A stretch of 14,591 nucleotides of DNA from Deltaproteobacteria bacterium. GTDB lineage: Bacteria; Desulfobacterota; Desulfobacteria; Desulfobacterales; Desulfatirhabdiaceae. The notes beneath the pieces are model-generated. The model saw only the letters and a list, made by a program, of their open reading frames with translations, was not told the origin of the DNA and ran no database searches. This document shows positions 1 to 12,104 of this stretch, in pieces (position 1 is the stretch's first letter; each line of letters opens with the position of its first letter). The DNA is taken from the NCBI GenBank assembly GCA_026388755.1, contig JAPLJE010000618.1:1-14591 (forward strand). The letters are read 5' to 3'. The translations under genes were made by a program, and so were the position numbers.

Positions 1-1110
1 ATCAGCCGGGGTTTCAAATACCAGATAGTATCGGTTTGCGCCCCCGAATACGGCCGGGGCCAGATCCGCTGCAAAGTAGGTGCCGTCATAAAGCAGCTGA
101 ATCATGTATTCAGGTCCGGCGGTAATTTCATTAAGCAGTCGAATGATCAGATCGTGAGCACTGGTAAAACACTCCCCGAGGCGTCGATGATCATATCCTG
201 AAAGCGGTGCCGAGCCATCTGATACTTCTCCCATGGCGGTGACCTGTACCGAAAAGGAGGAAAGCTCGCCGATGAGCTGCCGCAAAACACCGTATGCCGC
301 CCAGGGATGCACCTGCTTGGATTCTGTGAAATGGTGCAGAAGCGGCACATACCGGTTCAGGGATCTTAAGGCGAGAAGATACACCATATCCCGAGCTCCG
401 AACTCAGCGGTGTGGATACCCCGATCCTTTTTATAGGATTCGAGCTGGCGGGATCTGGCGGAAATTTCATCCCGAATTTCCTTTACGAACTTCAGCAGTA
501 CCGCATCGCTGGTGAGTGTAAGGCAGGGGGGAACATATTCCGAGGAGACGATTATCTCCTCGCCGGTGCGGATCAATCGGGAGATGGGGATCAGGACATA
601 ATCCCCCAGCTGGTCGATCTCGGTTTCCCAGAAGAGCCTCAGTAAATCATGCAGCCGCTTGACTTGGGCTGCTGGACCGGACTGGTGTAAATCGGGTGCG
701 TCCTGCGGATCGGCGGTTGTTATAAACCGCGTCGTAACACCGGAGAGCATATCGAGATTGGGTAAAACGGTCACATTCTCGCCGGTTGTATTCCATTTTC
801 GAATACCGACCCACACGGTGAGGGGTTTGCCTCCTTCCACCCAGTCCTCTTTAAAGGAGCGGGCCTCAATCAGTGCATTGCCGGGAAATACCACATGTGT
901 TGCATCCGGGAAAAGAAACTCCCCTTTCAGCAGATTAAAGGAACGATTTCCTATAGCCGCTTTTTGAATACTCATGCCCCCCACTCCCCAGAAGTGCGGG
1001 GTTAAAAATTCATGGAAGGGGGCGATCAGCGATCGGGTGTGAAGACCTTCCAGTTGGAAATGCTGTGGCTGTAAAAACAGGCCCTGGTGCCAGAACAGTG
1101 GTCTTTCCAT
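1..1110 (-). CDS. tssK: T6SS baseplate protein TssK (3' end outside window)
   Basis: TssK (ImpJ/VasE family) is a cytoplasmic baseplate subunit that links the TssEFG wedges to the TssJLM membrane complex. The reading frame is open from the ATG at 1110 to the window edge, giving 370 codons. Family members are usually about 440 residues, so some 70-80 residues lie outside. The N-terminus carries the family signature: the protein starts MERPLFWHQGLFLQPQHFQL, matching the usual 'W-x-x-G-x-x-L-x-P-Q-H-F-Q' opening that forms the shell-like domain contacting the baseplate. The ATG is preceded by purine-rich AAAGGGGA and AGGGG, which can serve as the ribosome site. It follows tssJ by 4 nt, so the two are almost certainly co-transcribed, and tssJ-tssK adjacency is the normal T6SS order. 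I see no frameshift or stop. The identification is firm; only the C-terminus is unseen. Confidence 0.93.
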   Translation of the reverse strand, partial: MERPLFWHQGLFLQPQHFQLEGLHTRSLIAPFHEFLTPHFWGVGGMSIQKAAIGNRSFNLLKGEFLFPDATHVVFPGNALIEARSFKEDWVEGGKPLTVWVGIRKWNTTGENVTVLPNLDMLSGVTTRFITTADPQDAPDLHQSGPAAQVKRLHDLLRLFWETEIDQLGDYVLIPISRLIRTGEEIIVSSEYVPPCLTLTSDAVLLKFVKEIRDEISARSRQLESYKKDRGIHTAEFGARDMVYLLALRSLNRYVPLLHHFTESKQVHPWAAYGVLRQLIGELSSFSVQVTAMGEVSDGSAPLSGYDHRRLGECFTSAHDLIIRLLNEITAGPEYMIQLLYDGTYFAADLAPAVFGGANRYYLVFETPAD

Positions 1111-1114
1111 GCCC

Positions 1115-1654
1115 CTATTCCCCTTTGATGTTTTCGATCTGTTGGGGGCCAAGCCGTAATTTCAGATTGATGATTTCCGGCTTGGAAACCATTTGTTTCT
1201 TGAACCCGCTGCCTTCCTCAACAGTTATGACCGGGATGTTGATGAGTCTCGTGATGCGATCTTTTTGGATGGTGGCATAACCGGCAGCGATCCCGATATA
1301 CTTTGCGCCTTCCGCGCGATCCATGGTGAAGGGCATACTCTGGCCTGGGCTCATGTTCAGGCGCTTAAAATTGGCGACACTGGCATCAAACATGCTGCCT
1401 TCCAGAAGCTTATAGAGCCCTTCCTCGGTTTCGACGAGCTGGTTGAACCCGTTTGGGTCCTTTAGTTGATAAACACAAAGCTGAAGCGTGTGGGCCATGT
1501 TGTTGTAAAGATTGAGTTGCGGGTCTGCCTGGAGGGTGAGTTTGATGGCTTCCTTTTCATATCGCCACTCCGGTGGAAGCACGGGCGCTGATGCGCAGGA
1601 AAGAATCATGAGAAAACTGATAAATACGGCCAAGGTCATAATTGACTTGTTCAA
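1115..1654 (-). CDS. tssJ: T6SS outer-membrane lipoprotein TssJ
   Basis: TssJ (VasD/Lip family) is the lipoprotein that anchors the TssLM trans-envelope complex to the outer membrane. With the start used here the product is 179 residues, within the family range. It begins with a short basic segment, then a hydrophobic stretch ending in a lipobox, with the lipidated Cys at residue 20 (context MILSCASAP). The mature part has the family's beta-sandwich pattern, including the 'L-x-L-x-A-D-P-Q-L-N' opening and a C-terminal strand ending just before the stop. Start choice: AGGAGG lies at 1665-1660, and the TTG at 1654 sits 5 nt behind it. The longer GTG at 1660 overlaps that ribosome site and an internal ATG at 1639 is too far away, so TTG is preferred. 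It ends 4 nt before tssK. The 208-214 nt upstream gap could hold an internal promoter, but I found no convincing one. Confidence 0.9.
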   Translation of the reverse strand: MNKSIMTLAVFISFLMILSCASAPVLPPEWRYEKEAIKLTLQADPQLNLYNNMAHTLQLCVYQLKDPNGFNQLVETEEGLYKLLEGSMFDASVANFKRLNMSPGQSMPFTMDRAEGAKYIGIAAGYATIQKDRITRLINIPVITVEEGSGFKKQMVSKPEIINLKLRLGPQQIENIKGE

Positions 1655-1868
1655 TTTCACCTCCTTGTCACTGGGCTGTTATTCGGTCTTAAGTCCGGTT
1701 GTACGACCGCTAAACGAAACTTCAAATTGCCGTTGAAATTATCGCCATGAGCCTTGCATGTCGGATGCTATCACCTATGATACATGTATGATAAAGTCAA
1801 CTCACATTTAAAACAGCTGGAACGGCACATTCAAAATACCGTATGAAGATATGCATCATATATGTTCA

Positions 1869-2594
1869 TTAATGGTTAAGATGGCAATTGTTTTCGAACT
1901 CTCTCAATAAATCCTCCATGAAGCGGCCCGATTCAAACCATTTCTTTAGAGTTGAAAATTTGGTTTCATAGATATCGAAGTATTCCGCCTTCTTAAGCGG
2001 CCCGAATTTAAGGCCCTGACCGGCTTCGGAGGCAATCTTTTCCGGATCCATCTCGCGCAGCATTTTTAATACAAGTGTATGGGCGGCCTGTTTGAATGCC
2101 TGGTGGGAAATAAAAAAGGCCTTATCAATGCGGCCCAGATACTCCTCAAGAGATACCTGCGGCTCCTGACCTTCCAGTCGGCTGCCGATGACATGGCGAA
2201 TTGTCTGTTCTCCAGGGTTTCCTCCCAGGAGCGTGGCGTTGATGTTTTGTACCAGTCGGTTCAGGGCGCCGAATATGGTGTTCAGTGATTCTGAAAGCTG
2301 CTCCATTATTTCCGGCGCAGACAGGTTTTCGTTTGATACCTCCCTTCCCAGCAGCAGGGAGAAAATCCCGTTGAAGACCGCCTCTTCCGTGCCGGCTTCC
2401 GGTGTCATCTCGGGCTGCTGCGGCTCAAATTGAGATGCCAGAGAGATCAAAAACGATTTTTTCTCATTGTCTGAAAGCGATGCCAGCCGTTTAGTTAAAA
2501 AAGTTTCAATAGCCGATTCGGCTTGTATCGGGTTTGATCCATATATCTGCCGTATTTCATGGGCAAGTTTGTCGTTAGATAGGGCGTTAGCCAT
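1869..2594 (-). CDS. T6SS TagH/Fha1-like C-terminal domain protein lacking the FHA domain
   Basis: The 241-residue product resembles the C-terminal domain of the T6SS FHA protein (TagH/Fha1, VI_FHA family). Its middle (about residues 150-185) has the family pattern: an acidic/aromatic residue, then S/D-x-H-Q-A-F, an alanine-rich helix, then L-x-x-M-D-P-E-K. Near the C-terminus comes K-K-A-E-Y-F-D-I-Y-E-x-K-F, corresponding to the 'kaRyWelYe..Y' segment, then a final F-M-E-D-L-L-R-E-F-E helix. Fha1-type proteins are usually around 400-500 residues with an N-terminal FHA domain that reads phosphothreonine; here no FHA domain is encoded and the first 60 residues are helical. The gene starts at an ATG 17 nt after the stop of the preceding 710-residue gene, with AAGG about 10 nt upstream, so they are probably co-transcribed. 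A structural or scaffold role at the T6SS is inferred. The family match is by pattern recall, not by alignment search. Confidence 0.65.
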   Translation of the reverse strand: MANALSNDKLAHEIRQIYGSNPIQAESAIETFLTKRLASLSDNEKKSFLISLASQFEPQQPEMTPEAGTEEAVFNGIFSLLLGREVSNENLSAPEIMEQLSESLNTIFGALNRLVQNINATLLGGNPGEQTIRHVIGSRLEGQEPQVSLEEYLGRIDKAFFISHQAFKQAAHTLVLKMLREMDPEKIASEAGQGLKFGPLKKAEYFDIYETKFSTLKKWFESGRFMEDLLREFENNCHLNH

Positions 2595-2611
2595 GATGAT
2601 TTGCCTTGTCC

Positions 2612-4744
2612 TTATTTTTTCGGAGGACGCAAAATAACGGTTTCGGATAAAATATCATCTTCATCTACTGCTCCGGGGTTTTCCACTTTTGGTGCCGACA
2701 TTGGTGAAACGAATGATTTGCCGGTTGTTTTACCGGAAAGGATGATGGTATCACAAGGCTCATCCTCGATTTTCTCCTGGGTTGGAATGGGAATTCCGAC
2801 AAGTGCCGCTCCCGTCTTTACTTTGGAGATAACAACCGTTTTTTCAAGTTCCTCCTCTAATTTATCTTTTGTAACCATTACTGTTTCTTGAAGGGTTTCT
2901 TGGGCCGAGTCTCTGGTTAAAATAATCGTTTTCGCTCCCTGAACGGTTTCCTGGATCTTGCCTCTGGTCTGAATGGACGTTTCGACATCCCAAAGGGCTT
3001 CTTCCACTTTGCCTCTGGTGAGAAGAATCGTTTCCGCCTGAATATCTTTTGGTCCGGACGTCTCTGTATGTGAAGGGTTAAGGGCAGTTTCCCATTTTCC
3101 GATGATACCGGTGAGAATCTTATGGATGGCGCGGTCATCAGACACATCGGCTGCAACGATTGCTGGTGCGCCGCCTTCAACAAAGAGGTGCTTTTTTATC
3201 TCTTTACGGATTGCCGAGAGGCCCTGTCGAAATTTATCTGAAGACCTCACGGCTCCCAGTTGGTCGGCCGTAAACAAGGCCCATGCCAATACCAGTGTTT
3301 TTTTCCACAGCGCTTTCCACTCAAATAGAATCTCCTTTAGGCCGTGAGCCGCCGGGTTCCAGAAAATATTTTCTAACGCAAATAGCGGAGTGTTTAATAA
3401 ATCCGTACCTGTTTCATGATTTTTTTCCAGAATCTCTGCCAGTGCGGCTATGACAGCGCCTGCGGGCTGCGACGCATTTGTCAGCAGGACATGGAGCCAG
3501 ACAAGACCCAGAAAATAGCTGATTTGTGCCTGATGTGATCCGGGACGGCCCAGTGCTGTCTGACGGGTGACTCCGATGTCCATGTAGCCGACTCTGAAAC
3601 TCCAAAGTCCGGGCAGGAAGCTGCCTTGACTGGGAATCTTTACCCACAGGCAATCCAGGGCCGCATTGATGTCGAGTGGCGCTGGCCCTGTTTGGAACAT
3701 TTCCGTTATTTCATTCAGAAAGGAAAGTTTGAGATACAGGACTTCAAGGAAGTGCTTTTCCGTTCCGTCAAAAAGAAAAAGGTCTTTTTCCCCAACCATC
3801 CGCCTGAATTCCGCGACAGCAGAGAGCCTTGTTGATTTATTTTTTTCCAGCAAGCGGGTTTCGAGATCATCCAAGCTTGCCCCAGAAACAAGGGGAAGAA
3901 AATCGGCGGCACGGATCGTCATGGCCTTAACTACCAGCATGTGGAACGGGTAAAACCCAAAGGGGATAATCCGTACTGCCGCAAGGTTTTCCGGTCCGTG
4001 GCATTTATCGCGTTCCAGGCATTTGAGACACGGGAACCCGGTGGGCGCAAGGCCGCCCGCCAATAGATACCGCCATGTCGCAATTAAGCCGCTGCTATCC
4101 CGAACCCCTTCGGAATCCGAGATGTCGAGTGAAGGAACGTAAAAGCCGTTACCCTCTTTTGCCGGAGGGCATGACGGACAGTAGAGGTATCGGCGCAAGG
4201 AAGAGCTGTAAACACTGAGTCCTTGGGACAATAACAACGGGTCGTCTTTGCAGAGGAAAAGAGTTTGACCGCAACCGGGGCACGGCGGGTGAAAAAAAAC
4301 GCGCTGATGGATACATAAAAAGAGGGACTGGAGAGCGTTCTGGCTGCCGCTGGTCGTTGTCGCATCTCCCAGCCGGATCACGTCATGACCGATGGCGCCG
4401 ATTGATGTTTTCCCGAATTCCGCAACAGAAAAAAAAGAATGGACCTGCTGCCAGCAAGCCTCTACGTCCAAATTGGTAAGCGGCCACAACTCACTTGGCT
4501 GATAGCGATAAGCATCTTTTTGAACCAACAGGAAAACCGGTTGCACCAAACTGCCGGCATTGGTGAGGATTTCTGCCCGCAGGAGCCGGGTGAAGGGAGA
4601 AGACTCATTTAATACCCGAAAGGGAAACCGCTTTGGAATTGATTCCGTGGTATCCGCAGGTGCGCCAAGGATATCTAAGCGTATTTTGGCATCGTCAGGT
4701 TCCAAGTAGGGGAGTAAAGAGGGCATAGACGTATTCTGGTTCAC
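2612..4744 (-). CDS. T6SS-associated protein, Cys-rich (zinc-ribbon-like), with C-terminal T-x-x-hydrophobic motif array
   Basis: I do not recognise a named family for this 710-residue protein. No signal peptide or membrane span is evident, so it is probably cytoplasmic. Residues 1-150 are a mixed alpha/beta region. Next come paired cysteines C155/C158 with C165 and C189/C192, which look like a zinc ribbon, and a second cluster at C239/C242/C248. Residues about 270-550 are helical. The last 140 residues (571-710) are low-complexity and hold seven copies of a short [EKD]-T-hydrophobic-x-hydrophobic motif with Thr at 572, 589, 606, 621, 636, 666 and 702. Six of the seven fit the pT-x-x-[ILV] preference of FHA domains. 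Start: GTG at 4744 with AAAGGGA about 7 nt upstream; the next ATG (4726) is too far from it. It heads the T6SS operon, just before the TagH-like gene. A role as phospho-dependent T6SS scaffold or regulator is inference. Confidence 0.7.
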   Translation of the reverse strand: MNQNTSMPSLLPYLEPDDAKIRLDILGAPADTTESIPKRFPFRVLNESSPFTRLLRAEILTNAGSLVQPVFLLVQKDAYRYQPSELWPLTNLDVEACWQQVHSFFSVAEFGKTSIGAIGHDVIRLGDATTTSGSQNALQSLFLCIHQRVFFHPPCPGCGQTLFLCKDDPLLLSQGLSVYSSSLRRYLYCPSCPPAKEGNGFYVPSLDISDSEGVRDSSGLIATWRYLLAGGLAPTGFPCLKCLERDKCHGPENLAAVRIIPFGFYPFHMLVVKAMTIRAADFLPLVSGASLDDLETRLLEKNKSTRLSAVAEFRRMVGEKDLFLFDGTEKHFLEVLYLKLSFLNEITEMFQTGPAPLDINAALDCLWVKIPSQGSFLPGLWSFRVGYMDIGVTRQTALGRPGSHQAQISYFLGLVWLHVLLTNASQPAGAVIAALAEILEKNHETGTDLLNTPLFALENIFWNPAAHGLKEILFEWKALWKKTLVLAWALFTADQLGAVRSSDKFRQGLSAIRKEIKKHLFVEGGAPAIVAADVSDDRAIHKILTGIIGKWETALNPSHTETSGPKDIQAETILLTRGKVEEALWDVETSIQTRGKIQETVQGAKTIILTRDSAQETLQETVMVTKDKLEEELEKTVVISKVKTGAALVGIPIPTQEKIEDEPCDTIILSGKTTGKSFVSPMSAPKVENPGAVDEDDILSETVILRPPKK
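2615..3034 (-). repeat. Tandem repeat region encoding T-x-x-hydrophobic motifs
   Basis: The 3' end of the 710-residue gene encodes units of 17, 17, 15 and 15 residues, followed by two more widely spaced copies and one at the extreme C-terminus. At DNA level the first three units share a clear 51-nt period: the plus-strand word CTCTGGT recurs at 2911, 2962 and 3013, each followed about 15 nt later by the codons of the E/K-T motif. The shared DNA shows growth by tandem duplication, while the later copies keep only the peptide motif, as expected if the motif itself is selected. Confidence 0.75.
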
Positions 4745-5186: not shown

Positions 5187-5243
5187 GATGCATACATCTC
5201 TTTTGATTTGTACGCATTCGAAACCCATAAAAGCGAGACAATA

Positions 5244-7116
5244 ATGATTCAAATTACCCTTCCAGATGGAAGCTGTAAAACTTTTGAAGCCCCACCTTCT
5301 GGGACCGACATTGCCATGAGCATCTCCGAGGGTCTGACCAGAAATTGCGTGGCCATGGAAATCGACGGCAGTCTGGTTGATCTCGGTACGCAGGTTGAAA
5401 CGGATGCCTCCATTCGACTGATTACCACCCAAGATCCGCAAGCCCTGTCCATTTTAAGACATAGCGCGGCTCATGTCATGGCTCAGGCCATTCTGCACGT
5501 GTATAAAGGTGCGAAACTGACCATCGGTCCCGTGGTTGAGGATGGTTTTTATTATGACATTGACATGGAGCCCGTATCGGAAGCTGATTTCCCCAGAATC
5601 GAGGCGGAAATTCAGCGGATCGTTCAGGCCAGAATTCCGTTCCGCCGCCGTGAAGTCTCCAAGGCCGAGGCCCTGGCCGTTTATCAGGATGAGCCGTATA
5701 AGTTGGAGTTGATCAAGGATCTGCCGGATGGGACCATTTCCCTGTACGAGCAGGGGGATTTTACAGACCTCTGCAGAGGACCGCATCTTCCCCACACTGG
5801 CTTTGTCAAGGCCATCAAGCTCATGAAGGTATCCGGTGCCTATTGGCGGGCGGATCAATCCAGAGCCCAGCTTCAGCGGATTTACGGGACAGCGTTTTTT
5901 GACAAAAAAGAGCTTAAGGCCCATATCCAGTTTATCGAGGAGGCCAAGAAAAGAAATCATCGAAAGATCGGCATGGCACTGGATCTGTTCAGCTTTCATG
6001 ATGAAGCTCCGGGAATGCCTTTTTTTCACGCCAGGGGAATGGTTATCTGGAATGCCCTTCTGGAATACTGGCGGGCGGAGCACCGAGCGGCCGGCTATGT
6101 GGAGATCAAAACGCCCATCATGCTGAACCGGGGGCTGTGGGAGCGTAGTGGTCACTGGGAAAACTACCGTGAGAACATGTACACCAGCCAGGTGGATGAG
6201 ATCGAATATGCCATCAAGCCCATGAACTGTCCGGGAGGAATGCTTCTTTACGGATTAAAGCCCCATTCTTACAAGGATCTTCCCATACGTGCCGCATAAA
6301 TCGGACTCGTGCACCGGCATGAACTGAGCGGTGTGCTTTCGGGTCTTTTCCGGGTTCGGGCGTTTCATCAGGACGACGCCCATATTTTTATGACACCCGA
6401 TCAGATTGAATCGGAAATCCTGGGGGTTCTGCGGCTGGTTGAAAGAATCTACCATACTTTCGGGCTGGGTTTTCATCTGGAACTCTCTACCCGGCCGGCA
6501 AAATCCATTGGAACGGATAAACAATGGGAAGAGGCAACCAATGGATTGAAATCCGCGCTGAACGCATATGGAAAAGCGTATAAAATCAATGAGGGAGATG
6601 GTGCATTTTACGGCCCCAAAATTGACATTCATATTAAGGATGCTCTGGGTCGCACCTGGCAGTGCGGAACCATTCAGCTGGATATGGCGCTGCCGGAGCG
6701 GTTCAATCTGACCTATGTGGGAAAAGATAATCGGGATTCTGGTTGAGCATTTTGCCGGGAAATTTCCCTTGTGGCTGGCGCCGGTTCAGGTGGCGATGCT
6801 TCCCATCAACGATGAACTGGTTCCCCATGCCTGCAATGTCAAAGATTTTTTTGAGAAACATGGCATACGGGTTGAGATTGATGGCCGGACCGAAAGCCTG
6901 AACAGGAAAATCAGGGAAGCCCAGATCAATCAAGTACCGGTAATTCTCACGATCGGTGCCAAAGAAAGAGACACGGGAACCCTTTCGGTGAGAACCCTGG
7001 ATGGAGCGGTTCGATATGGATTGCTTCCGGAAATGCTTCTTGAAAAACTGTTTTCGGTGATTCGTGAAAGACAACTTACCCGGACACTGTTTGAATCTGA
7101 AGAATCCGGCACATGA
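5244..7116 (+). pseudogene. thrS: Threonyl-tRNA synthetase pseudogene (nonsense mutation plus deletion/frameshift)
   Basis: ThrRS charges tRNA-Thr. The remains show every domain: an N-terminal TGS domain (MIQITLPDGS, residues 1-60), the editing domain (H73/H77 and C177/H181), and the class II core with zinc ligand C329 in MNCPGGM. Codon 352 (6297-6299) is TAA where the family has Glu before '[12 protein letters not shown]'; a single G-to-T change explains it. The frame then stays open through motif 2 and the second zinc ligand (DDAHIF) to TYVGKD near 6728, where the sequence jumps into the +1 frame at [11 protein letters not shown]. The lost segment normally reads roughly HRPVMIHRA-GS-ERF and contains the third zinc ligand and the motif 3 Arg (H511 and R520 in E. 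coli). Restoring about 59 nt gives 644 codons, the usual length. The anticodon-binding domain follows to the TGA at 7114-7116. The usual infC-rpmI-rplT neighbours are absent. Start ATG 5244 fits the family N-terminus, with only a weak GCGAGA ribosome site. Confidence 0.93.
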
Positions 7117-7274: not shown

Positions 7275-10200
7275 CTAAGTTGCGGCAAAGATAAGTCTGC
7301 GTTCCCCGATACTCAGCAGCGGGCTCTGCAGACGCACCGGCTCGCCAATGTTCTTGAACAGCAGATCTCCGTTTCCCAGAAGGTTTTCAGCCCCTTTCTG
7401 GTTAAGCAGCAGGGCGGCGTCGATGCTTTTGGTTATCTTCAGTCCCACCCGCGCCGGCAGGTTGACATCCAACGTGCCTTTGATGGTCTGCCGATTCGCG
7501 TGCTGGGTGGCGATCATCAGATGAATTCCGGCTGATCTGGCTTTTGCGCCCAGCCTGAATATCTGGGACTCGATTTTTTTCCGCGATTCCCTGTCCCGGT
7601 TGATCAAATCAAAATACTCATCACAGATGCAGACAATCCGGGGAAGCGATACTCTGGCCTGGTGCCCAAGCCTGTCCACGGTATCGGCTCCGGCCTCCTG
7701 TAGCCGCTTGTACCGCCGCTCCATTTCGTCGGCCAGATCTCCAAGAACGCGCTCCGCGGGTTGTTCGTCCGGATAGACAAGCGCAGTGGGATTCAGCAGG
7801 AACGGGGAGCCTTTCAGGTCATTGAAAGCATTTCGCTTCGGATCAATCAGCACCAATCGAAGGGTATCGGGCGTATTGGTCAGCAGAAGTCCGGCAATCG
7901 CGGTTCGCATCCATTCGCTTTTTCCGCTTCCGGTGGTCCCGCCAATCAGGATATGTGCGTTTTCAGGTTCGGCAAGGTCCGCCATTCTCAGGGTATTGGA
8001 AAGATCAACTCCCAGAATGATCTGTGAACAGCCGAAGGAAGCATTGGGCTTCGGCAGCTGATTTCGAATGTCAGAAAACCGGATCACCTGACGGTCCGGT
8101 CTTTGAATATCCACAACAACCCGGCCCTCTGAGATGTGGATGTAGGGCGGTGCAGCAAGCTCCATCCGGTGCTGGATTTCCTTTCCGATTCCCTGAACGG
8201 TTGTCAGCTTTACCCCTTTTCCCAGCCGGATGAAAAACCGGATAAAGGTCGGCCCTGTGACGGGGCTGCCATCCAGTGAGATCTCTCTGCCATATTCGCT
8301 GAAGATGGATACCAGTTGTTCTGCCTGTGGCAAAAAAGAAGGCCTGTGCTGCTGATCCCGGCTATCCTGCGGCTGGCGCCCGCCTGGTCCACCCGGAAGA
8401 ACGTCTGCCAGCCTGCCAATCAGGTGTTTCAGATGCTTCTGGGCACTTTGGATCTCATCCGGCATAAAAATCTGTTCCGTTTTATCCGGGCTGAAACGGA
8501 TGTATGCCATGGCTCCGGATGAAGCGCCGGTCTGCTCGGATAGTATCTGGTGATACAGACAGACCTGAGCCAGATCCGCCTCCGGACAGGCGAGACCTAT
8601 CTTGAATTCAACAACGCACCAGTGAGGGCAGCTTTGATCTCTGAGATTTGAATCTTGAGTTGCGCGGAGGGGAGTTGGGCTGGCGCTTTGCGGAATTTTT
8701 AGAACCAGATCGGCGATCCCTGACAACACGACCGAATCTGTCCAGCCGGGTTCAAAAAAGGATATGGACACTTCCTGCTCCGGGCTGAAGACAAGATCAA
8801 TGTCCATGCCGGGTTTTCTTGCTTCCCACAACAAGGATGCGATCCACCCGCACAATCCTTGCGCAGCCTTCCAGAAGGCGATGACCGAAGGGGTCGTATT
8901 TCGCAGATGAACCTGTTCTCTCTGAATGGCGGGGCCGATCAATAGTTCATACAGATGATGGATGAGCCGCTGTCGCCATTCCTGTTCATCGGGGGCTGCT
9001 TCAAAAAGGGCCGATTCCCAGTTGAAGTGGTCATCATTTCCCAGAAGCTGGGCAAAGGATTCATGAAATATCCGGCCCAGAAGCCGGGTAGATGGCACTT
9101 TATCGTCAGATGAATTTGAATATCCGGCAAGGTGAAGAATTTCCTTCCGGACCTGGCTGACAGACAGGCAGACTGGCATGATTGCCTTGCTCCTTCGTAT
9201 GGTTTGTTCGGGCCCAGATGTCATGCTGAAGACAGGGATATGGATCCGGCGCGCTGCTTCTGTCAGGGCGATGATCCGCTCTTTTTCCATCAGTTCCAGA
9301 AGACACTGGAGAATTTCCTGATCTTCTGAAGACATCGGTTCACCTTCGGATAGAATATCATCCATGAATGTCATCGCAGGATTGGCTTTCAGGGATTTGA
9401 ACCATTCCCGAACTGTTTTTTCATGAATGGGTTTTCCCTGATGCGTCAGATCCCCGGTTCTGGCGTCGCTCAGCAGGCTTCGCAAGGCATCGAAGGCGGC
9501 CAGGGCTTCAAGCGATGGAGTGAGCAGCCGAATGTTACGATCATTGAGCTGGTGCAAGTACTGATTGACTTTTTTGGCGCTGGGTCTGATGCGAAGTTGT
9601 GGGTGCCTGAGCAGTACCAGCCGCATCCTTTGTTCATGTGGAAAGTTTTGAACCAATCGCCGAAACTTTCCGGCCAGGCTGTTCGTTTTCTGATGATTAC
9701 ACAGACAGATTCCGATCTCAGCGTCCGGGCAGGCAATCACCATATCCACAGCCGGGTGAAGCTTCCGGTTCTTTTCCCGGCAGCGATCATCCAGAATATT
9801 GACCAGGGAAGGAAGCACGTTTGAAAGCACATCATCCATTTCATCCGGGCCGATGCGGCTGAATGCGGTTTCTTCCAGGGCGTCCATTTCATTTTGAAGA
9901 AATGCGCTGAGTGGTGGCTCTGAATCAGGCTGCCCGTGTACGGGGCCAGGGTTGGACAGGTTGTCGAAGATGTCTGCGCAACGGGTAAGGACAGCGCGGC
10001 AGGTCTGGCTGGCTTCTCCCACAAAATCGGACAAGTCCTTTGAAAGGGTCTGAAAAAGAGCGTTTCTGTCAAAGCCTTTGTCGGGTATGGCCTCAATTCT
10101 TGAGAAAATTAGCTTCAGGGCCTGATGCTGCGTCAATTTACTCAGTGTCAGGGCGTGACAGGACATGGCGTCAAAATCCGGAAAAGCCACAGCCTTTCTG

Positions 10201-11003
10201 AGTTCGCCAATAAAAGAGGTCTGAATACAGGTGACCAGCAGGAGATTTGAAGTTGCGTCATGAAGGGTGCGGATGGCCTGGCCGAAACGAAATAACCCAT
10301 CGATGTCCTTGGGATAGCGCTGAAGGGCTTCAATCTGATCAAAAGACAAGACCAGGGGAATCGTCGGCCCAGCCAGCCGGCACAGCTCCAGAATCATCTC
10401 GCGGGCCAGATCTTCAGGATCATCGGTCTCATCCGGCGGGCGAATCTGAAGTTTGGGATATGCGGATTCCGGCAGCGTATGCCCCTTGATCCAGGCAAAA
10501 ACATCCGGGCCATGGCGCAGATGAATCAGGTGTTGAAGGGCCTGGCACAGATTCGGGGAAAGATGGGAATCCGTCCGGATGGTTTCGGTAAGATCTGTCA
10601 GCGCTTCGAAAGGGATGGCGGGTTTACGGTACAGGAGATAAAGCCTGCGCATAAACATCAGTTCGAGTTGGGTGCGTCCATTTTTGCCGGGTTTGGCGAG
10701 GCTTTCGACAAAACAGGTGCGAAGATGCCGCCAGAGCCGGTTGGGGCTGGTATGGAGGCGGACCGAACCAAAAACATGAAGATTCGGCAGGGTGAGCGTA
10801 TAATGCTGGAGGCGATTCAGGACATGAGTTTTCCCGCTTCCGGTTTCGCCGTAAAGAAGAACGGATGTTGTGCGTCCTTCCTTTCGGACCGTATTCAGCG
10901 CCTTGCAGCAGAGATCGAAAGCATTGGAATGGATTTCAGCGACATCGGCACCGCCGGGCCGCCAGGGATCAGCTACGATACGGTTTCGAAAGGGATTGAT
11001 CAT
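7275..11003 (-). CDS. AAA ATPase - RecB/Cas4-like nuclease - FtsK/HerA translocase fusion protein
   Basis: This 1242-residue cytoplasmic protein joins three enzymatic modules. Residues 1-350 form an AAA/Orc-like ATPase with Walker A GETGSGKT (52-59) and a Walker B-like LVLSFDQIE (217-225). Residues about 410-540 are an unrecognised domain. Residues 640-850 carry a complete RecB/Cas4-type PD-(D/E)XK nuclease: G-x-x-x-H (H648), GIAD (D765), E799-x-K801 and Q813-x-x-x-Y817. Residues 985-1242 are an FtsK/SpoIIIE-type motor: GGTTGSGKS (1021-1029), LIDPKR, a Walker B ending D1128-E1129, and the downstream IATQHANRQTIKG and N-L-P-A-R-V-G-L-K-I segments. No membrane spans or FtsK gamma domain are seen, so this is not the cell-division FtsK. 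ATG 11003 overlaps the upstream gene's stop by ATGA, with GAAGGAAA as ribosome site. A DNA-translocating nuclease, perhaps defensive, is inferred; no named system I know has this order of domains. Confidence 0.85.
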   Translation of the reverse strand: MINPFRNRIVADPWRPGGADVAEIHSNAFDLCCKALNTVRKEGRTTSVLLYGETGSGKTHVLNRLQHYTLTLPNLHVFGSVRLHTSPNRLWRHLRTCFVESLAKPGKNGRTQLELMFMRRLYLLYRKPAIPFEALTDLTETIRTDSHLSPNLCQALQHLIHLRHGPDVFAWIKGHTLPESAYPKLQIRPPDETDDPEDLAREMILELCRLAGPTIPLVLSFDQIEALQRYPKDIDGLFRFGQAIRTLHDATSNLLLVTCIQTSFIGELRKAVAFPDFDAMSCHALTLSKLTQHQALKLIFSRIEAIPDKGFDRNALFQTLSKDLSDFVGEASQTCRAVLTRCADIFDNLSNPGPVHGQPDSEPPLSAFLQNEMDALEETAFSRIGPDEMDDVLSNVLPSLVNILDDRCREKNRKLHPAVDMVIACPDAEIGICLCNHQKTNSLAGKFRRLVQNFPHEQRMRLVLLRHPQLRIRPSAKKVNQYLHQLNDRNIRLLTPSLEALAAFDALRSLLSDARTGDLTHQGKPIHEKTVREWFKSLKANPAMTFMDDILSEGEPMSSEDQEILQCLLELMEKERIIALTEAARRIHIPVFSMTSGPEQTIRRSKAIMPVCLSVSQVRKEILHLAGYSNSSDDKVPSTRLLGRIFHESFAQLLGNDDHFNWESALFEAAPDEQEWRQRLIHHLYELLIGPAIQREQVHLRNTTPSVIAFWKAAQGLCGWIASLLWEARKPGMDIDLVFSPEQEVSISFFEPGWTDSVVLSGIADLVLKIPQSASPTPLRATQDSNLRDQSCPHWCVVEFKIGLACPEADLAQVCLYHQILSEQTGASSGAMAYIRFSPDKTEQIFMPDEIQSAQKHLKHLIGRLADVLPGGPGGRQPQDSRDQQHRPSFLPQAEQLVSIFSEYGREISLDGSPVTGPTFIRFFIRLGKGVKLTTVQGIGKEIQHRMELAAPPYIHISEGRVVVDIQRPDRQVIRFSDIRNQLPKPNASFGCSQIILGVDLSNTLRMADLAEPENAHILIGGTTGSGKSEWMRTAIAGLLLTNTPDTLRLVLIDPKRNAFNDLKGSPFLLNPTALVYPDEQPAERVLGDLADEMERRYKRLQEAGADTVDRLGHQARVSLPRIVCICDEYFDLINRDRESRKKIESQIFRLGAKARSAGIHLMIATQHANRQTIKGTLDVNLPARVGLKITKSIDAALLLNQKGAENLLGNGDLLFKNIGEPVRLQSPLLSIGERRLIFAAT

Positions 11004-11947
11004 CCGTGATTTCCTTCGTGCAGGACCACCACCACATAATAATTCCCCTGGCCATCTGCAATCATTGTCTCTTTTTCCGCATCGGTCATCTGAGCAGGGT
11101 GGGCGTGTTTATTTAAAAAAACTTTTCCCTGTTTCGCAAGGATCAGGATGGCGCGGTCAAATGTGTATTTGGGTAAATCCAGGACGTTTCGAAGGTCAGG
11201 AATCCAGACTGGCGCCTGTTTTGCGGCGCTGGGAACAATTCTGAGCATGGTTTTAACAATCCGGTTCAAAACCGTTTCAGATACATCCGGTTCAGGCAAA
11301 ATGGGTTGGAAATTCTCCCTGTTGCCCACTCCGGAAGGAGAAGCAGCGGTCCGCGAAAGGGACAGCATTTTTTCAAAAGCCTCAAACACCTGTTCGGCGC
11401 CAATGTCGGCTTTTTTCAGTTTCTGGCAGATCCGGTCGAATTCTTTTCGGGTCTTGTCCAGATACAACTTGAGATCCGGGGGATGGGCTGCATAACGGGA
11501 TTTTTTGTAAGTTCCCCAGGGCGGAATTTCAAATAGCGTTTTTTCTTTAATAAGGGCTGCCAGTGTGGTATTGACGATGCAGGTCAAACGGGTTTTTGAA
11601 CAGGGAACCGCGTCATTTTTAACGTTTTCCAGCAAATCGGTTTTGGTCAGCATTTGCCGGGAAAGAACGGACAGTATCCTGCCCTGAAAATAGGAGGTTT
11701 CGTCCTGATGCCAGAATCGATCTTTCCGGCTGCCAGGTCCTGCCGGCCACCGGTGGAGCGTTTCGGACCCTGCTTCCCGTTGAAGCAGTCCGACCAGATC
11801 CTGTTTTTTAAGTTGATATAGTCCGGGAATGTCCTGATGGATTTCATCCGCGGTAAGCGGTTTGAGGGCGCGTTCAATCATTTTTTTCATAACCATAAGG
11901 GTCTCGGGCCGGGAAAGATCATCGGAAGGCGTTAGGGGCATGTCCAT
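11000..11947 (-). CDS. Uncharacterised winged-helix-like protein, partner of the translocase-nuclease
   Basis: I do not recognise a named family. The product, 315 residues from the start used here, appears to contain three winged-helix-like segments: near the N-terminus (around the residues PLTADEIHQDI), in the middle (TKTDLLENV through the basic strand YKKSRYAAH), and at the C-terminus (VLDLPKYTFDRAILILAKQGKVFL followed by an acidic helix and the strand NYYVVVVLHEG). A helical linker of about 60 residues separates the second from the third. No catalytic motif is visible, so DNA or protein binding is the likely role. Its TGA overlaps the ATG of the fusion gene, which implies translational coupling and a shared function. 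Start: ATG 11947 has AGGA 4 nt upstream. A TTG at 11986 would add 13 residues, but it has no ribosome site and lies inside the flanking repeat element, so it is less likely. Confidence 0.7.
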   Translation of the reverse strand: MDMPLTPSDDLSRPETLMVMKKMIERALKPLTADEIHQDIPGLYQLKKQDLVGLLQREAGSETLHRWPAGPGSRKDRFWHQDETSYFQGRILSVLSRQMLTKTDLLENVKNDAVPCSKTRLTCIVNTTLAALIKEKTLFEIPPWGTYKKSRYAAHPPDLKLYLDKTRKEFDRICQKLKKADIGAEQVFEAFEKMLSLSRTAASPSGVGNRENFQPILPEPDVSETVLNRIVKTMLRIVPSAAKQAPVWIPDLRNVLDLPKYTFDRAILILAKQGKVFLNKHAHPAQMTDAEKETMIADGQGNYYVVVVLHEGNHG

Positions 11948-11978: not shown

Positions 11979-12104
11979 GATGGCAAAGTAAAAAGTTCAA
12001 GATCAAGACGAGCAAATCCTTCGTCATTGCAGCGTACTTTTGGGTACGCTGCAATGACGAAGGATGAAGCTCAACGCAGACATTGGACTTTTTACGAAGC
12101 CATC
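11979..12104. repeat. Nested inverted-repeat element (MITE/REP-like)
   Basis: The core is a perfect 22-bp inverted repeat (12016-12037 and 12044-12065) around a 6-nt loop; its arm contains CCTTCGTCATTGCAGCG. Further out, a second pair of 22-nt arms matches at 18 of 22 positions: 11979-12000 read on the minus strand and 12083-12104 on the plus strand, both of the form TTGRACTTTTTAC-NNN-GCCATC. The outer arms are almost symmetric about the same centre. A double palindrome between divergent genes without a T-run looks like a small non-autonomous repeat rather than a terminator. It encodes nothing. Confidence 0.7.

Follow-up and report, generated by a model that had tools for sequence, protein, structure and literature searches.

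The window analysed here is the whole 14,591-nucleotide stretch of contig JAPLJE010000618.1, from a bacterium of the Desulfatirhabdiaceae. Its minus strand encodes a winged-helix (WH) protein and, directly downstream, a protein of 1242 residues in which an Orc1/Cdc6-type AAA+ ATPase, a RecB/Cas4-type nuclease and an FtsK motor follow one another (Table 1). We consider this locus to belong to the Orc/CDC6-coupled HerA/FtsK capture class (probability about 0.68): an operon of the chromosome with a patchy distribution, most likely serving to restrict incoming DNA. Operons combining Orc/CDC6, nuclease, HerA/FtsK and multiple winged helix-turn-helix (wHTH) components were described in 2024 as predicted anti-invader "HerA/FtsK capture systems", with their domains on one chain or spread over several (Rakesh, Aravind and Krishnan, PMC10853773; this and the other articles are cited for the accessible parts of their text). 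The same idea, together with a BREX-related variant (BRC), appears in PMC12839542, and a HerA-nuclease defence complex was reportedly studied experimentally in PMC11291478; no mention of Orc was found in the accessible part of PMC7159879. A sequence-only reading of the window had proposed an undescribed system. This claim does not hold, since such domain sets were already published (PMC10853773) and the homologues of the locus fall in the class described there; its idea of a machine that senses, translocates and cuts agrees with the published proposal. The class was known already, and what is added here is the linkage of the genes in genomes drawn from the bacterium's own taxonomic class, the co-loss of a winged helix and the nuclease-motor, and the fusion.

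The domains read earlier, i.e. an AAA ATPase, a RecB-type nuclease and an FtsK motor with a DNA-binding partner, proved correct on profiles, a conserved motif and predicted folds. The ATPase has its Walker A at residues 52-59 (GETGSGKT) and an FDQIE motif beginning at residue 221, matches AAA_16 (Pfam, E 1.8e-8, residues 40-228 of the 1242-residue protein) and was assigned to the Orc/CDC6 clade of AAA+ proteins. In the orthologous ATPase of genome G003, whose insert numbering is off by one residue relative to the window, the insert is a predicted alpha/beta unit without a catalytic ExK, followed by a wHTH. Its strand order presumably resembles that of a restriction endonuclease (REase). The insert profile did not match the active nuclease profile, a result still compatible with a shared fold, and the insert sits where the published class has an inactive REase, before the C-terminal wHTH.

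Conservation of the nuclease motif was counted in an alignment with the 120 nuclease-FtsK homologues listed of 636. H647 is kept in 115 of them, D765 and E799 in 119 each, K801 in 116, and Q813 and Y817 in all 120; D..ExK is jointly intact in 115/120. The motif proposed earlier stands for the conserved D765, E799/K801 and Q813/Y817, whereas its histidine is at position 647 and not 648. This conservation makes the nuclease part a putatively active REase. PDDEXK_1 (Pfam) was matched in 3/8 close family members and was absent for the window protein among the 25 Pfam matches listed at E 0.1. The motor matches FtsK_SpoIIIE (E 1.4e-31, residues 995-1168), as do 8/8 close members, and carries the second P-loop of the chain (1022-1029, GTTGSGKS), so that the two P-loops noticed before are both confirmed. 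Its FtsK_alpha match is weak (E 0.0015, below the Pfam cut-off; 5/8 members match at E 0.01). The best solved relatives are FtsK structures, among them 2iuu (E 1.7e-46, residues 878-1234), which we take to be FtsK of the P. aeruginosa type. The motor was assigned to the HerA/FtsK ATPases with FtsK-alpha.

The WH partner is predicted by AlphaFold to contain three wHTH units (mean pLDDT 82.6), at residues 27-92, 96-166 and 237-322 of its 328-residue form; we read the unit borders from the predicted helices and strands. It has no Pfam match, and PADLOC gave nothing for the 328-residue protein at E 1. The winged-helix character suggested earlier stands at the level of this predicted fold only. No relation to DndG/SspB was found among the profile and fold matches listed, an absence that carries no evidence. 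The third unit recurs in scattered small proteins of genomes G000, G002 and G003 (loci L009-L014, L016 and L017; open reading frames (ORFs) of about 120-240 residues), of which G003 holds seven places. Three of these proteins tried against Pfam had no match, and two adjoin ORFs presumably resembling YD repeats.

The locus shares with the Orc/CDC6 capture systems the Orc/CDC6 ATPase, the insert before a C-terminal wHTH, a putatively active REase, an FtsK with FtsK-alpha and a multi-wHTH partner (PMC10853773). According to the accessible text this partner has 2-4 wHTH units and is related to DndG/SspB in a subset of systems; here three units are predicted. The window differs from these systems by the fusion of ATPase and nuclease-FtsK, without the end of the ATPase C-terminal wHTH, and by neighbours that are not evidently mobile.

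The operon structure was examined in relatives of the window. There the WH gene is followed by the ATPase gene (about 560-725 residues) and then by the nuclease-FtsK gene (about 590-690 residues), all separate, so that the two-gene system proposed before is in fact a three-gene operon with a local fusion in the window. Counts refer to 19 distinct genomes with a canonical ATPase: 12 of the taxonomic class, G054, G064, G674, G969, G678, G675 (L026) and G676 (L027). HSG16 appears as both G487 and G677 and was counted once, and distant relatives in G033, G400, G576, G006 and G1076 are omitted. As the earlier reading expected, the partner gene is conserved, being present in 18/19 genomes; it adjoins the ATPase gene in 17/18 (as a tail only, at a contig end, in G420 and G603) and lies on another contig in G002. 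A canonical nuclease-FtsK was found in 14/19 genomes, including G064, in which only its first 117 positions precede the contig end. It adjoins or is fused to the ATPase in 12/14, lies about 9 kb away in G001 and starts at the edge of another contig in G476. Neighbouring genes were defined by a longest-ORF rule, which may produce spurious ORFs and hid the WH gene of L027.

Four genome draws, each including one centre genome carrying the system, gave its distribution: 6/297 genomes in the phylum of the window (1 weak), 14/389 in its class (2 weak), 2/297 in the phylum of the L025 genome and 2/282 in that of the L029 genome (1 weak), a Polyangiaceae metagenome assembly whose three-gene operon is complete. 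In the class draw, 8/8 genomes with a full nuclease-FtsK are among the 12 with a canonical ATPase (hypergeometric P 4e-14, kinship ignored). Presence is patchy even within the genus: neither G006 (99% complete) nor G005 (67% complete) yielded the canonical genes. G006 does carry a distant pair of this kind, and in G004 only the WH gene was found. A distant sister group of ATPase and nuclease-FtsK pairs was also observed (L038:6832-10933, L079:4871-8907, L081:9449-12912). The nuclease end in L038 bears a cysteine cluster, presumably similar to that of Cas4.

A second association links the end of the ATPase to the nuclease-motor. The ATPase stops before its C-terminal winged helix in G002, G420, G603, HSG16 and G969, and no canonical nuclease-FtsK was found in these genomes. 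The 13 genomes with a full-length ATPase all have a nuclease-FtsK (partial in G064). The winged helix is lacking in 5/5 genomes without canonical nuclease-FtsK vs 0/13 with it (Fisher P = 1.2e-4, kinship ignored; the window was omitted because of its fusion). G007 has a further short ATPase, the sixth, as a second copy on a 6.4-kb contig without nuclease-FtsK. In a FastTree tree the branches of the short ATPases are scattered, several of them with weak support. The co-loss suggests that the ATPase C-terminal winged helix couples the ATPase to the nuclease-motor. Selection seems still to act on the short forms, to judge from ATPase frames that have stayed open over 562-725 codons on long branches. 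Several points weigh against the coupling. Some genomes are incomplete (G603 75%, G487 80%), a weaker FtsK-type match of G420 extends into the nuclease part (E 6.7e-67), and G969 has no WH gene and an unusual, repetitive tail. The profile match overruns the stop by a few codons in HSG16, G603 and the G007 copy, an overrun also seen in the full-length G003 and G007 genes. Each case could also stem from a deletion that took the end of the gene together with the gene beside it. ATPase genes with neither a C-terminal winged helix nor an adjacent nuclease-FtsK were seen at L035, L072, L076, L077, L080 and L083.

With these sequences, motifs, predicted folds and linkage, the following mechanism may be proposed. 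The triple winged-helix protein, by its predicted fold, and the Orc/Cdc6-like ATPase would bind DNA and form an ATP-controlled platform. This platform would recruit the nuclease-FtsK protein, probably by docking through the ATPase C-terminal winged helix, as the co-loss suggests. The FtsK ring would pump duplex DNA past the RecB-type nuclease, whose motifs point to cutting, and the outcome would be defence against incoming DNA. In the window, with its in-frame fusion, the covalent link may do the work of the missing winged helix; alternatively, this copy may be the product of damage or mis-assembly. A broader proposal, which we make tentatively and regard as somewhat improbable, is that the WH-ATPase pair is a selected, self-sufficient module armed in some lineages; its winged helix would dock a separable nuclease-motor, would have been repeatedly lost along with it, and would be replaced by the covalent link in the window. 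If true, unarmed WH-ATPase pairs would be DNA-binding sensors or regulators, or would block invaders without cutting. The capture class is a comparative-genomics prediction, for which this family offers test material: compact three-gene operons whose catalytic residues are clear, natural nuclease-less versions and one fused natural variant, if real. Together these make it possible to test directly how an origin-type ATPase works with a pump and a nuclease.

The fusion itself has to be weighed separately. The window ATPase tracks those of G003 and G007 up to residue 589 and then diverges; the end of its C-terminal wHTH and the stop codon are replaced by a short unrelated stretch, after which the window rejoins its relatives at the AAGGAG ribosome-binding site and ATG (9179) of the nuclease gene. 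The single chain with both ATPases and the nuclease, described in the earlier reading, was not confirmed as typical: the genes are separate in relatives, and the fusion was seen in the window only. No fused chain was found among 17 protein-search hits (longest 708 residues), in a search whose length window allowed 1242 residues and which scored the best 7992 candidates only; the 120 nuclease-FtsK homologues listed of 636 are 595-691 residues long, in a search that could not list a 1242-residue chain. Three origins of the fused layout may be considered: true variation, decay of the copy or faulty assembly. We give about even odds that it is non-functional and reflects decay or mis-assembly of an operon with the usual three genes. 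The fusion was seen in this contig only, and conserved sequence is replaced at the junction, with no clean in-frame join. In addition the adjacent threonyl-tRNA synthetase (ThrRS) gene (5208-7116) is disrupted: compared with G003, it has acquired a nonsense codon and lacks 59 bp. No other copy was found in the genome of the window (at E 1e-30), which points to decay, strain mixture or assembly error; the assembly consists of 839 contigs with 5.68% contamination. On the other side, the frame is open over 1242 codons with every motif intact, and the nuclease gene still has its start signal. A 47-base junction probe occurs once in the assembly of the window, in the window itself, and has no occurrence in 7 relatives (up to 3 mismatches in both cases); the junction stretch was thus not copied from either source.

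Concerning the function of the operon, the principal rival to restriction of incoming DNA is a housekeeping role in chromosomal DNA processing (segregation, replication restart or repair), which we judge unlikely. Orc1/Cdc6-like and cellular-FtsK-like parts would suit such a role. Much of the context also weighs against a defence function. In three genomes of the genus (that of the window, G003 and G007) the locus lies next to shared DJ-1/HGD-D genes, the pattern of a vertically kept gene, and elsewhere its identified neighbours are mainly metabolic or housekeeping (25 of 119 neighbour families listed). No complete known defence system was recognised beside the locus in PADLOC scans of neighbours. 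No ATPase relative was found in 72,556 plasmid and 50,697 phage records, which rather speaks against the mobile neighbourhood associated with the capture class. The canonical nuclease-FtsK was not found in 5/19 ATPase genomes, and therefore the ATPase and WH protein either act without it or are relics. In an Acidobacteria nuclease-FtsK (L025:1568-3406) the ExK is gone and the FtsK part looks intact. Finally, no experiment on the Orc/CDC6 capture class was found in the literature searched, which covered few subscription journals. The housekeeping role is opposed by the small number of genomes of the class concerned (14/389), by the failure to find the canonical genes in the nearly complete G006 of the same genus, though its distant pair is of the same kind, and by a separate cellular FtsK-type match in the genomes checked. 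Cellular FtsK has the same alpha and beta motor domains, as the 2iuu match indicates, and differs in that here an ATPase and a nuclease precede the motor and there is no gamma domain. In cellular FtsK a membrane part precedes the motor.

Among the other systems, a transposon target-selection module could be considered, as the ATPase also resembles TnsC and MuB; we find it very improbable. No transposase was seen among the neighbour families listed (25 of 119), and the likeness to TnsC is unspecific, as the Z values for TnsC and Orc are less than 1 apart. BREX/BRC have another partner set (PMC12839542), and neither PglZ nor a methylase was recognised in the window. For MADS, only the motor domain matches (mad8, E 5.5e-23, PADLOC scan of the two window proteins). 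Phosphorothioate-dependent restriction of the DndFGH/SspFGH type scarcely deserves credit: DndFGH/DptFGH and SspFGH also have a large protein ending in nuclease and HerA/FtsK, with wHTH and P-loop partners (PMC10853773, PMC8092258), and the best PADLOC match of the fused protein is SspH (E 1.5e-44), but only the FtsK end aligns (residues 958-1231; positions 1472-1754 of 1766 and 1236-1549 of 1561 in the DndH/SspH profiles) and not the whole chain, neither window protein matched the DndF/DndG or SspF/SspG models of PADLOC, no modification genes were seen, and chain length and N-terminal architecture are unlike those of DndH in the accessible text of PMC10853773.

The features of the locus are collected in Table 1. 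The 1242-residue ORF and its ATGA-overlapping upstream ORF are both present as first described: the WH ORF ends at 11000, overlapping the ATG of the fused ORF. In its longest form the WH ORF starts at a TTG at 11986; the end coordinate given before, 11947, is an ATG inside this ORF.

Table 1. Features of the capture-type locus in the window.
Feature	Position	Strand	Extent and basis
Fused ORF	7275-11003	minus	1242 codons/residues
WH partner gene	11000..11947	minus	3 predicted wHTH units; AlphaFold
Orc1/Cdc6-type AAA+ ATPase core	9864..11003	minus	about residues 1-380 of the fused ORF
Alpha/beta insert	9429..9848	minus	about residues 386-525; predicted strands and helices of the G003 orthologue, column counts
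Fusion junction	9180..9236	minus	alignment with G003 and G007, junction probe
RecB/Cas4-type PD-(D/E)XK nuclease domain (putative)	8394..9179	minus	residues 609-870; own ATG at 9179
FtsK alpha and beta motor	7275..8372	minus	residues 878-1242; no room for a gamma domain

The neighbourhood of the locus and its relatives was analyzed with Pfam and PADLOC. Pfam matches were obtained for 17/20 neighbours, including PfkB, outer-membrane efflux, chaperonin, radical SAM, periplasmic binding protein, acyl-CoA dehydrogenase, protein kinase, tRNA synthetases, sulfatase, glycosyltransferase and ParA. A PADLOC scan of 87 neighbours (selected larger ORFs from 12 loci) matched 70 families at E 1e-5, including mad3, mad8 and AriA; the 25 families listed have 1 to 3 members each. 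Among 30 neighbours scanned singly, 5 match PADLOC: a kinase, a Pycsar-cyclase-like domain, an RtcR-type regulator, a DolB/PDC-M37B-like protein and a protein with a BrxC helical domain. The enrichment near known defence genes expected earlier is not borne out by these matches, which form no complete system; with no background set compared, the neighbour data show no defence island and are still compatible with enrichment. In viral contigs no relative was found with the whole-protein or ATPase alignment, and the nuclease-FtsK alignment retrieved three FtsK-domain relatives (31-33% identity). In plasmids, matches of the full protein covered at most 29% of the query, at the FtsK end (20 listed of 653 records). 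No clean empty insertion site was found beside ThrRS in G006, G004, G007 and G001, in which gene order differs; in G002 a lone ATPase adjoins ThrRS.

Three neighbouring regions contain further genes. L031 has a stand-alone 384-residue protein matching the BrxC C-terminal part and helical domain (L031:5500-6654), near DksA, PHP and RNase III genes. Near the unarmed WH-ATPase pair of L072, a 770-residue protein with the Pycsar-cyclase-like domain (L072:3030-5342) adjoins a DUF4388/cNMP-binding protein and possibly belongs to ordinary cyclic-nucleotide signalling. In the window itself, positions 1-4744 carry the type VI secretion system (T6SS) genes TssK and TssJ, an unmatched protein of 710 residues and a protein weakly matching the C-terminal domain of T6SS FHA proteins.

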